Shown in pieces: positions 3,650-61,020 of a DNA stretch of 64,000 bases. Position 1 is the first letter of the stretch. Each line of letters begins with the position of its first letter. A model generated the notes under the pieces. That model saw nothing but the letters and a program-made list of their open reading frames with translations. It was not told where the DNA came from and ran no database searches. Both the position numbers and the translations under genes were made by a program. This DNA is from Alphaproteobacteria bacterium. Lineage in GTDB: Bacteria; Pseudomonadota; Alphaproteobacteria; Rhodobacterales; Rhodobacteraceae. Location of the stretch: assembly GCA_030425185.1 (NCBI GenBank), contig JAUIAU010000006.1, forward strand, positions 59,057 through 123,056, in the 5' to 3' direction.

Positions 3650-3700
3650 GCATGAATCCCTCCCGTGTCGGGGTCATGACACGGACCTCCCTGTTGGACT

Positions 3701-3727
3701 GGCCCGGCTTCACGCCGGGTCTTTTCT
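3701..3727 (+). terminator. Rho-independent terminator after response regulator
   Basis: GGCCCGGC-ttcac-GCCGGGTC followed by TTTTCTTTT. Confidence 0.8.
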
Positions 3728-19322: not shown

Positions 19323-19610
19323 ATGAAACAGGCTCTTCTCGCGCTTCCGCTCCTCGTGCTGGCCGCGCTTCCGGCGCAGGCCGCGTGCTATGCGGACTAC
19401 AAGGCCAAGACCGACAATCCGCTGCGGCTGCACTACGGCGTGGCGCAGATTTCCGACGGTGCCTGCGGCAACCGCGGGGCCGCCGCCGCCGAGCTCAGCC
19501 CGCGTCTCGCCGCCGGGGGGTGGACTTTGCTCGACATCGTCTCGACATTCGGGCCGGAAGGACTGAACGAGAGACGGGCCGATGCCGGACAATTCTATCT
19601 CCGCTTCTGA
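19323..19610 (+). CDS. Hypothetical small secreted protein
   Basis: MKQALLALPLLVLAALPAQAACYADY signal peptide; overlaps next CDS by 29 bp. Confidence 0.7.
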   Translation: MKQALLALPLLVLAALPAQAACYADYKAKTDNPLRLHYGVAQISDGACGNRGAAAAELSPRLAAGGWTLLDIVSTFGPEGLNERRADAGQFYLRF

Positions 19611-20283
19611 AACGCTCCGGACCGGCAACCGCGTCATCCAGTTCGGCATCGCGGCGATCGTCCTGATCCTCGGGCTGGCGGCGGTCGGCCTGTTCCGGGC
19701 GCTGCCGGATGCCAACGCGTTCAACGCCCGCGTCGAGAAACTGTTCATCGAAAGCGACCTGACCTCGCCCGCCGAGATCACGCTGCTGGAGATCCTCGCG
19801 CAGTCCGGCACCGCATTCTCGGAAACGCTGATGTCCTACCGGATCGTGATCTTCGTGCTGCTGGTCTTCTCGACGGCGCTGCTGATCGCCTCGCTGGTGT
19901 TCCTTGTCACGCTGCTCGCCCTGAACCGGCGGGTCAGCCAGATCAACAAGCAGGGCATCCAGGTCGGCTCGCTGCTGATCTCGCGCGCCGAGCGCGTCGT
20001 GGTCATCAACGACATGGAGTTCAAGCTGACCGAGGCCGCGATCGAGACCCTCGCGGTGCTGGCCGAGGCGCGCATGGACGGCGACATCCTGACCGGCGCG
20101 CAGCTGGAAGCCGTGATCCAAGGCCGCAGCGAATCCGACTGCGAGGAGGCCGCCGGCGCCACCCGGATCAAGCGCCTGCGCGACTCGCTGGGCAACCAGA
20201 TGGTCGCCGAGATCCTCGTGAAGAACATTTCGCGCCAGGGCTACGTGCTGGCGATCGACAAGAGCGTGATCCGCATGGTCTGA
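19582..20283 (+). CDS. Membrane protein with two TM segments and C-terminal OmpR-like winged-helix domain
   Basis: TM1 VIQFGIAAIVLILGLAAVGLF, TM2 IVIFVLLVFSTALLIASLVFLVTLLAL, then FKLTEAAIETLAVLAEAR...TRIKRLRDSLGNQMVAEILVKNISRQGYVLAID. Confidence 0.8.
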   Translation: MPDNSISASETLRTGNRVIQFGIAAIVLILGLAAVGLFRALPDANAFNARVEKLFIESDLTSPAEITLLEILAQSGTAFSETLMSYRIVIFVLLVFSTALLIASLVFLVTLLALNRRVSQINKQGIQVGSLLISRAERVVVINDMEFKLTEAAIETLAVLAEARMDGDILTGAQLEAVIQGRSESDCEEAAGATRIKRLRDSLGNQMVAEILVKNISRQGYVLAIDKSVIRMV

Positions 20284-20299
20284 GCCGGGCGGGCCGGGT

Positions 20300-20354
20300 A
20301 CCGACGCCGCACCGACGCGATACCGACGTTGCACCGACGTGATACCGACGTCGC
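20300..20354. repeat. Five-unit 11-bp tandem array, core ACCGACG
   Basis: ACCGACG starts at 20300, 20311, 20322, 20333 and 20344: exact 11-bp spacing. Confidence 0.9.
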
Positions 20355-20409
20355 TTTTTGCCCCTCCGGCCCGCCCGACTCGTGCCAGACTAGCCACGAC
20401 GGAGGTGCC

Positions 20410-21597
20410 ATGACCCATCCCTTTCTCGACCACCTGACCGCCACCCTCGCCGGGATCGAGGCCGACGGCCTGACCAAGCGCGAACGCCTGATCACCTCGC
20501 CGCAATCGGGCCGCGTGACCATCGCCGGACGCGAGGTCATCAACCTGTGCGCCAACAATTACCTGGGCCTCGCCGATCACCCGGCGCTGATCGAGGCCGC
20601 CGGGCAGGCGATGGCCGACCACGGGTTCGGCCTTGCCTCGGTCCGGTTCATCTGCGGCACGCAGGACCTGCACCGCGCGCTGGAAGAGCGCCTCGCCCGG
20701 TTCCTCGGCATGGAAGACGCGATTCTCTTCGCGGCCTGCTTCGACGCCAACGGCGGCCTCTTCGAACCCCTCCTCGGACCCGAGGATGCCGTGGTCTCGG
20801 ACAGCCTGAACCACGCCTCGATCATCGATGGCATCCGGCTGTCGAAGGCGCGGCGACTCCGCTATGAAAACAGGGATCTGGACGGGCTGGAGACGGCGCT
20901 GACCGAGGCCCGCGCGGGCGGGGCGCGGCATATCCTGATCGCCACCGACGGCGTGTTCTCGATGGACGGAACGCTGGCTCCGCTGCCGGGCATCCGCGCG
21001 CTGGCGGACCGGTTCGGCGCGCTGGTGATGGTGGACGACTGCCATGCCACGGGGTTCCTGGGGCCGAAGGGGGAAGGCACGCCAGTGCATCTGGGCACCC
21101 GCGCCGACATCCTGACCGGGACGCTCGGCAAGGCGCTCGGCGGCGCGCTGGGCGGCTACGTCGCCGGACCGCAGCCGGTGATCGACCTGCTGCGCCAGCG
21201 CGCCCGGCCCTATCTCTTTTCCAACGCCCTGCCGCCCGCGATCACGGCGGCCGGTCTCGCTGCGCTCGACCTCGTCGAGGCGGGCCACGACCTGCGCGCG
21301 CGGCTCTTCGACAATGCCGCGCACTGGCGCGCGGGCCTGACGGCGGCAGGGTTCGACCTGATCCCGGGCGAGCATCCGATCATCCCGGTGATGCTGGGCG
21401 ATGCCCGCCTGAGCCAGCAGATGGCCGCCCGGCTGTTCGAGAAGGGCGTCCATGTCGCGGGGTTCTTCTACCCGGTGGTGCCGCACGGCACCGCCCGCAT
21501 CCGCACCCAGATGAGCGCGGCGCTGACCCGGGACGATCTCGACACTGCGTTGCAGGCCTTTGCCGAGGCCGGGCGCGAGACGGGGGTGCTGGCATGA
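20410..21597 (+). CDS. kbl: Glycine C-acetyltransferase (2-amino-3-ketobutyrate CoA ligase)
   Basis: [22 protein letters not shown]...[15 protein letters not shown]...[14 protein letters not shown]; followed by tdh. Confidence 0.94.
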
Positions 21598-22631
21598 GGA
21601 ACACGATGCAGGCGCTGGTGAAACCCGCGCCGGGTCCGGAACTGGTCCTGCGGCAGGAGCCGGTGCCCGAGATCGGGGCAGAGGACGTCCTGATCCGGGT
21701 GAAGAAGACCGGCATCTGCGGCACCGACATCCATATCTGGCAATGGGACGACTGGGCCGCGCGCACCGTGCCGACGCCGCTGATCACCGGGCACGAGTTC
21801 GCGGGCGAGATCGTGGACATGGGGCGGCTGGTCGAGGGGCTGGAAATCGGGCAGCGCGTGTCGGGCGAGGGGCACCTGATCGGCAAGACCTCGCGCCAGA
21901 GCCGCGCGGGCAAGTTCCACCTCGACCCTGCCACCCGCGGCATCGGCGTGAACGAACCGGGCGCCTTCGCGGATTACCTGCGCCTGCCCGCCTTCAACGT
22001 GGTGCCGTTGCCGGACGCCATCGACGACGAGATCGGCGCGATCCTCGATCCGCTGGGCAACGCGGTGCACACCGCTCTGAGCTTCGACCTGATCGGCGAG
22101 GACGTGCTTGTGACCGGCGCCGGTCCGATCGGGATCATGGCGGCCGCCGTCGCCCGACACGTGGGCGCGCGACATGTGGTCATCACCGACGTCAACCCGG
22201 ACCGGCTGGCGCTGGCCGAGCGGGTCGCGGACGTGCGGGCGGTCGATGTGCGCACGACCGAGCTGCGCGACGTGATCCATGACCTCGGCATGAAGCAGGG
22301 ATTCGACGTGGGGCTCGAGATGTCGGGGAACCAGGCCGCGCTGGACCAGATGGTCGAGACGCTGACCATGGGCGGGCGGATCGCATTGCTGGGCATCCCG
22401 CCGGGAAAGAGCCCGGTGGACTGGTCCCGCATCGTGTTCAAGGCGATCACCCTCAAGGGTGTCTACGGCCGCGAGATATTCGAGACCTGGTACAAGATGA
22501 TCGCGATGCTGGAGAACGGCCTCGACGTGCGCGGCGTGATCACCCATCGCTTCCCGGTGGCCGAGTATCGCGCGGGGTTCGAGGCGATGCTGTCCGGCAG
22601 CAGCGGCAAGGTCGTGCTGGACTGGACCTGA
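21594..22631 (+). CDS. tdh: L-threonine 3-dehydrogenase
   Basis: [39 protein letters not shown]; overlaps kbl stop by 4 bp. Confidence 0.94.
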
Positions 22632-34461: not shown

Positions 34462-34520
34462 CACTGATACCCTTCCAGATAAGCGCCCCTCGTTGGGGAG
34501 GGGTGTCCCGCCACCGCAGA
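34462..34520 (-). promoter_or_regulatory. Candidate structured serC 5' leader
   Basis: Minus-strand GGACACCCCTCCCCAACGAGGGGCGCTTATCTGGAAGGGTATCAGTG-ATG: CCCCT...AGGGG hairpin and possible ACCC/GGGT pairing over the SD region; position matches known alphaproteobacterial serC leader motif. Confidence 0.4.
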
Positions 34521-56029: not shown

Positions 56030-56160
56030 CCTCTCTTCTTCCTGGCGGAAATACTCCGGGGGGCGCGCGCCCGCACGGGCGCGCGGCGGGGGGCAGAGCC
56101 CCCCGGTCCGGCCTGCGGCCGGAGCGCTCCGCGCGGGAGTATTTTTCCCAAGAAGAAGGG
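56030..56160. repeat. Structured intergenic element with inverted terminal repeats and four internal hairpins
   Basis: Left end CTCTTCTTCCTGGCGGAAATACTCC is an imperfect inverse of right end GGAGTATTTTTCCCAAGAAGAAGG; internal GCGCGCCCG-ca-CGGGCGCGC, GGGGGGC-aga-GCCCCCC, CCGGCC-tgc-GGCCGG, GGAGCGCTCC. Confidence 0.75.
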
Positions 56161-56164
56161 GGGC

Positions 56165-56208
56165 ACCGACACGATACCGACGTCATACCGACGTGATACT
56201 GACCGGGT
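56165..56208. repeat. Four-unit 11-bp tandem array, core ACCGACG (last unit degenerate)
   Basis: Unit starts at 56165, 56176, 56187 and 56198; same core and spacing as 20300-20354. Confidence 0.85.
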
Positions 56209-60399: not shown

Positions 60400-61020
60400 C
60401 TAGAGGTCCGCGGGCGCGGTGGCGGCCATGGACGGACGCGCGCGCAGTTTCTCTTCCCACGCGGCGAGGGCCGGGCGCCCCTTGCGCCAGTCGAGATCGC
60501 CGTGGCGGAAGTCGAGGTAGCCGAGCGCACAGCCGACGGCGATCTGTCCCATGTCGAGCGGGCCGAAGAGGTGGCTCATCCAGCGCGCCTCGAGCGCATC
60601 GAGCGCATCGAGCGCACGGTCGATCTTCAGCCGCTGCCCGCGGATCCAGGCCGCCTGCCCGTCATCGGCCGGGCGGAAGCGGCGATCGTATGTGATCAGG
60701 ACTGCCGCATCCATAAGCGCGTCCCCGGTCGCTTCCAGCGTCAGCGTCTCCCAGATCCGGCTCTCCGGGTAGAGGCCGCCTCCGGCGACGGAGTCGAGGT
60801 AGCGGCAGATCACCCGGCTGTCGTAGATCGCCGGGCCGTCGGCGCGCACCAGCGCCGGGATCTTGCCGGTCGGGTTGGCGGCGATCAGGTCGGCGTCCTC
60901 GGTCCCGAGCGGGGTCGAACTGGCCTGCACCATCTCGATCCGGTCGGTCCAGCCGATCTCGTCGATCAGGACACGCACCTTGCGGACGAAGGGCGAGGCG
61001 GGGGAATACATCAGCTTCAC
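60400..61020 (-). CDS. Glutathione S-transferase family protein
   Basis: VKLMYSPASPFVRKVRVLIDEIGWTDRIEMVQAS...NPTGKIPALVRADGPAIYDSRVICRYLDSV; GTG start. Confidence 0.9.
   Translation of the reverse strand: MKLMYSPASPFVRKVRVLIDEIGWTDRIEMVQASSTPLGTEDADLIAANPTGKIPALVRADGPAIYDSRVICRYLDSVAGGGLYPESRIWETLTLEATGDALMDAAVLITYDRRFRPADDGQAAWIRGQRLKIDRALDALDALEARWMSHLFGPLDMGQIAVGCALGYLDFRHGDLDWRKGRPALAAWEEKLRARPSMAATAPADL

Follow-up and report, generated by a model that had tools for sequence, protein, structure and literature searches.

The window (the whole 64,000-nucleotide stretch analyzed here, from a member of the Rhodobacteraceae) carries, between a gene for a winged-helix (wHTH) membrane protein and the kbl and tdh genes, a short array of direct repeats (Table 1). 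The ACCGACG cores of this array start at 20300, 20311, 20322, 20333, and 20344, at intervals of exactly 11 bp. The final core runs to 20350 and the final 11-bp unit to 20354, 55 bp short of the kbl ATG at 20410. An earlier note on this DNA had described five exact cores in perfect 11-bp register ending at just this distance from kbl, and both observations are borne out. An inverted repeat with a T-run encloses the array, which also overlaps a terminator-like stem. This bracketing repeat, which was not seen at any other array, may be the terminator of the upstream gene, split by the array. No sigma-70-like promoter was found in the region upstream of kbl.

Table 1. Coordinates of the features discussed (positions in the window, except for the ribbon-helix-helix, RHH, gene)
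Feature	Position	Strand	Description
SorX small RNA	3656-3727		Rfam RF02784, 85.1 bits
wHTH membrane protein gene	19582-20283	+	Upstream neighbor, stop at 20283; C-terminal Trans_reg_C-like winged helix (Pfam E = 1.1e-4, under the curated cut-off)
Inverted repeat, left arm	20282-20297	+	16 nt; arms 94% complementary; brackets the kbl array
11-bp array at kbl	20300-20350	+	ACCGACGCCGC ACCGACGCGAT ACCGACGTTGC ACCGACGTGAT ACCGACG(TCGC); five exact cores
Inverted repeat, right arm	20366-20381	+	16 nt; partner of the left arm
kbl	20410-21597	+	Downstream neighbor; 2-amino-3-ketobutyrate CoA ligase-like; Aminotran_1_2, E = 1.2e-62
tdh	21594-22631	+	Downstream neighbor; threonine dehydrogenase-like; ADH_zinc_N, E = 7.7e-26
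serC leader	34462-34513	-	Rfam RF00517, 70.5 bits
GC-rich element	56040-56160		Long intergenic inverted repeat (GGAGTATTTTTCCCAAGAAGAAGG type); similar sequence adjoins several arrays
Second array, same family	56165-56204	+	ACCGACACGAT ACCGACGTCAT ACCGACGTGAT ACTGACC
Short tandem repeat	60585-60616		9-bp unit GCGCATCGA, 3.6 copies
Solitary RHH gene, candidate binder	contig C200, 2755-3162		Outside the window; Pfam BrnA_antitoxin

The kbl array does not stand alone. When the window was scanned without reference to any motif (three 7-mers at a fixed lag, with at most one mismatch), a lag of 11 returned two arrays and each of eight other lags returned none; the second array, which the earlier note had missed, lies in the spacer between a convergent pair, a MarR-family gene (+) and an RluA-type pseudouridine synthase gene (-). 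The genome-wide search that the earlier note had proposed found 80 exact ACCGACG-N4-ACCGACG pairs in the source genome (3.66 Mb, 206 contigs) against 0 for the reversed pattern, which amounts to about 38 arrays of 3 to 6 units each. In total, these observations point to the kbl array as one member of a chromosome-wide set and not a switch for kbl-tdh alone. Across the family the ACCGACG arrays are patchy, with at least 5 pairs in 20 of 397 genomes, and named carriers include Shimia, Roseovarius, Pseudooceanicola, Salinihabitans, and Pseudohalocynthiibacter. In the literature consulted, searches on the motif, on 11-bp repeats, and on RHH proteins in this family found no description of such a system and nothing relevant. 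Several alternatives were rejected: a phage origin (the well-formed pattern occurs on only 2 viral contigs), intrinsic DNA curvature (which leaves one fixed core per genome unexplained), and an element acting as RNA (among codirectional arrays a sizeable minority run antisense, several flip between lineages, and the kbl spacer folds no better than its shuffles, z = -1.1). A blastn search for plasmids gave no match, a result that carries no weight given the low-complexity filter.

What might bind these arrays? The earlier note had pictured a helically phased site for cooperative binding, with the neighboring membrane wHTH protein as the obvious candidate. The phased site is supported: among 17 arrays orthologous between the source genome and its near relative G002, identity is 98.5% in the core, 93.0% in the spacer, and 94.3% in the flanks (p = 3e-6, core versus flank), although both sets were picked by the core pattern and some ascertainment bias remains. 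The proposed binder is not. Its gene adjoins the array and OmpR-type domains bind 10- to 11-bp direct repeats, but its distribution fails to match that of the arrays in either direction, and it is for this reason that we reject it. The protein is found across the family at 62 to 78% identity (99% in G002), including four genomes without ACCGACG arrays (G014, G010, G012, and G036), and it was not found in the array-bearing G006, G165, G170, and G220. In 28 of 30 fetched relatives its gene has no array beside it; the exceptions are the source genome (G000) and G002, the only two genomes in which the kbl array was seen. Binding by this neighbor therefore seems so improbable that we set it aside.

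A solitary RHH protein encoded elsewhere appears, from comparative sequence data, to be the better candidate. In five genomes a small gene recurs divergently at 76 to 116 bp from an array, and its product matches the BrnA_antitoxin family of RHH proteins (PF14384; 47.6 bits against a cut-off of 26.1; E = 2.3e-12, range 2e-12 to 1e-11). No relative was found in the PDB, and an AlphaFold model built from two sequences only, with a pLDDT of 57 and no strand, is too poor for the predicted fold to be checked against it. A profile search of the 397 family genomes gave 27 strong matches; of the 20 genomes that carry 5 or more ACCGACG pairs, 15 are among them (p = 4e-16). The five exceptions are G060, G126, G220, G313, and G334, the last of which has an RHH fragment adjoining an array at a contig end; a further oddity is G375, which has ACCGACG arrays even though strand position 6 of its RHH protein is Arg and the repeats beside the RHH gene itself are of the CCGACA type. 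In 42 of 74 RHH loci a strict 11-bp array lies upstream, within 520 bp of the strand codons, and every other lag from 7 to 20 gives 0 to 2 of 74. Weaker, sub-threshold 11-bp repeats of the expected type are present at many of the other loci. In G014, which has an RHH homologue without an adjoining array, no array was found in 200 kb. Within about 1.5 kb of the RHH genes the neighbors vary, and no common toxin, small partner, or ParM-type motor gene was found.

RHH proteins contact DNA via alternate residues of a beta-strand, and positions 2, 4, and 6 of the strand xKxTxYxD are thus the presumed DNA-facing residues. These residues track the repeat. Among strong RHH matches, at least 5 ACCGACG pairs occur in 14 of 15 genomes when position 6 is Tyr and in 1 of 12 when it is not (p = 1e-5). 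Similarly, TG[CT]A-type cores accompany Arg at position 2 in 9 of 11 loci and Lys in 1 of 25 (p = 5e-6), the sole Lys locus being a miscall of the motif class. Read as triplets, K-T-Y pairs with ACCGACG (in the VKVTLYLD branch too), K-T-W with GCCGACG, K-T-L or K-T-M with TCCGAY, K-T-R mostly with CCxKAC, R-T-x with TGYA-type cores, x-N-x (Asn at position 4) with AAGAC cores, Q-T-R with TTATGAA, and R-T-L with CATATG, the last in two distant proteins. One CCCGACA lineage has the strand TKVTLRLD. In a partial Mantel test conditioned on the rest of the protein, which controls for relatedness only in part, the core correlates with positions 2/4/6 at r = 0.49 and with the other strand positions at r = 0.34 (both p = 2e-4); positions 1, 5, and 7 correlate with the core too, more weakly.

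The pairing also has predictive value. The cores of the chorismate mutase spacers in G001, G006, G018, and G028, found before the RHH gene was known, equal the cores beside the RHH genes of these genomes. In two blind tests, each on 200 kb of sequence not examined before, the RHH-adjacent core CCATACG predicted 2 of 3 de novo arrays in G190, and TGTGCAT predicted 3 of 3 in G277, with 0 for the reversed-pattern control in each. The other G190 array (L549, about 18730) is an 11-bp array with the unit GGTGATCCACA, perhaps DnaA boxes.

The positions of the arrays stay between genera while the repeat sequence shifts by lineage. The same spacers are occupied at nearly equal gaps in different genera (chorismate mutase 28/28/28/28 bp, lpd 24/24/25, livG 9/9/8/8), and in several genomes that lack ACCGACG arrays, 11-bp arrays of other sequence occupy the spacers at chorismate mutase and lpd; CATATGNAAAN, for example, is the repeat of another lineage at positions shared with ACCGACG arrays. 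These alternative repeats are themselves genome-wide: G001, of the same genus, has a CCCGACACTTG family (51 matches, control 0), G006 has a TAYGRAAGARY family (33 matches, control 0), and G018 has a few CATATG-type arrays. Many array places in G006 and G001 are also occupied in the ACCGACG lineages (at least 7 of 17 and at least 7 of 26, respectively; a rough estimate of chance gives p of about 6e-5 and 1e-3), sometimes with the orientation flipped, as at the conserved bch, yej, and valS spacers. In valS, two different cores occur in one loop (L202, L162, L172, and L356), in opposite orientation in G006.

Where do the arrays lie? Based on gene calls from a caller retrained on known genes, nearly all are intergenic. 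Pooled over seven genomes, and with expectations set by spacer length on a background of the window and two relatives, 87 arrays lie in codirectional spacers (74 expected), 30 in convergent spacers (17.5 expected), and 15 in divergent spacers (40.4 expected; p = 1e-6). Codirectional arrays keep close to the stop codon of the upstream gene, at a median of 34 bp, and one site lies between rpoA and rplQ. A few others lie in frame inside valS, purL, an ABC-F gene, and the start of yejE/opp; those in ABC-F, purL, and yejE/opp (L048, L266, L039, and L247) encode PTxYRRDTDV-like linkers, which resemble the protein-coding repeat insertions in Rickettsia. The neighbors are housekeeping genes, among which no functional theme was found. 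All 33 arrays of G001 (p = 0.006) and all 21 of G441 (p = 0.02) are on the main replicon, the 14 to 17% of these genomes on other replicons being array-free. The arrays are spaced more evenly than random in G441 (p = 0.01) and G316 (p = 0.04), which is not the case in G001, and 45 of 66 arrays in G316 fit an axis close to the GC-skew switch. We do not claim polarity by replication strand, because the strand of an array also tends to be that of the genes and no clear pattern emerges in G001.

Other elements accompany some arrays. A TTAAC-N6-TTAAC element that resembles the CtrA consensus TTAA-N7-TTAA occurs 31 to 32 bp upstream of a subset of the arrays in three lineages whose cores differ (G316 L256-L275, G001 L372-L401, and G000 L041/L065/L067), and a link to cell cycle control is possible. 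Palindromes like TGCTGCGCTGCAGT, similar to the PhaR motif CTGC-N3-GCAG, precede three arrays (L035, L038, and L055).

Given this distribution, are the arrays simply operators, i.e., classical sites for an RHH or other factor that controls the adjacent gene, here kbl-tdh? The kbl array does lie 55 to 59 bp before the ATG, the array at the RHH gene itself is very likely an operator, and several arrays keep a fixed distance to the start codon across genera (27 to 37 bp for chorismate mutase, 24 to 32 bp for lpd). However, a promoter-operator regulon would be expected to have its sites enriched at promoters, the opposite of the depletion in divergent and excess in convergent spacers; arrays also occur within coding sequence, and in one case between rpoA and rplQ, conserved spacers can hold their array in either orientation, neighbors lack a common function, and no sigma-70-like promoter was found at kbl. 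We thus consider this account unlikely, and regulation of the kbl promoter, which the earlier note had proposed to check, finds no support as a general role given the spacer classes, the intragenic arrays, and an array seen at kbl in just two genomes. It is likewise doubtful that arrays bound by the RHH protein block transcription, or act as insulators, where genes end. The proximity to stop codons, the convergent enrichment, and the terminator-like setting of the kbl array would fit such a role, but arrays in essential coding genes and highly expressed operons would block them, and no array other than that at kbl was seen with such a bracketing inverted repeat.

Could the arrays instead be dispersed REP/STRR-like repeats, copied passively around the genome with no protein to bind them? 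Like REP/BIME elements, they are intergenic, close to gene ends, present in dozens of copies, and found in both orientations; flanking modules are partly shared, and some copies are in-frame insertions in coding genes. REP/BIME units are palindromic, whereas these are direct repeats with no inverted arms common to the arrays. Moreover, a passive repeat would not be expected to keep its core above spacer and flank, to occupy identical orthologous spacers in distant genera, or to covary with the strand residues of one protein and yield to blind prediction. We regard this explanation as very improbable.

Among described systems, the closest likeness is to plasmid partition. Direct repeats are bound there by ParR, which is usually of the RHH type; R1 ParR requires at least two 11-bp repeats, and ParR-parC specificities diversify between plasmids (PMC9426499). 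Type II (ParMRC) systems share with our loci tandem direct repeats next to the gene of the DNA-binding protein, and the BrnA_antitoxin match would make our protein a putative RHH counterpart of ParR. In contrast, ParR-parC is a plasmid system with one centromere and a ParM motor gene in the operon, whereas here there are dozens of short arrays per chromosome, none on the other replicons of G001 and G441, and no motor gene beside the RHH gene. BrnTA shares a BrnA-type RHH domain above cut-off and probable autoregulation; our protein differs in its many genomic sites, its extra N- and C-terminal regions, and, by neighbor comparison, the lack of a conserved toxin partner. MetJ and other chromosomal RHH repressors bind as cooperative dimers to tandem short repeats. 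MetJ arrays, however, lie in the promoters of one pathway, and the arrays described here are depleted from promoter spacers and adjoin genes with no common function.

Taken together, we posit, with a probability of roughly 0.78, that the approximately 38 arrays are chromosomal binding platforms for the solitary, autoregulated RHH protein. In this model, which is built from sequence comparison, each 7-bp core (ACCGACG in the source lineage) would take one RHH dimer and would be read by strand residues 2, 4, and 6 (K-T-Y in EKVTLYLD). The 11-bp pitch would put 3 to 6 dimers on one face of the helix, and binding would therefore be cooperative, much like that of R1 ParR to its 11-bp repeats; the array at the RHH gene would be its operator, for autoregulation. 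That the RHH protein binds the arrays is something we infer. More tentatively, we speculate that the dispersed arrays might serve chromosome organization or maintenance and not promoter control, because promoter spacers are avoided, both orientations are tolerated, arrays occur inside genes, and only the main chromosome carries them.

In its broadest form, which we offer as a possibility and hold with less than even confidence, the proposal is of a family-wide chromosome-organizing system in which one small RHH protein uses dozens of parC-like 11-bp arrays on the main chromosome only, and in which the code has been rewritten genome-wide in each lineage, with the strand residues and the 100 to 200 units per genome changing together at fixed positions. 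Were this so, an entire bacterial family would possess a chromosome-wide DNA-binding system that has yet to be described. It would also be a natural experiment in protein-DNA coevolution, with about 40 loci that pair an RHH beta-strand with its repeat, enough to write a recognition code that could be tested by residue swaps. How would a protein with dozens of sites shift its specificity without losing them? And what holds the arrays in place, at one gene spacer after another and even within a single loop of valS?
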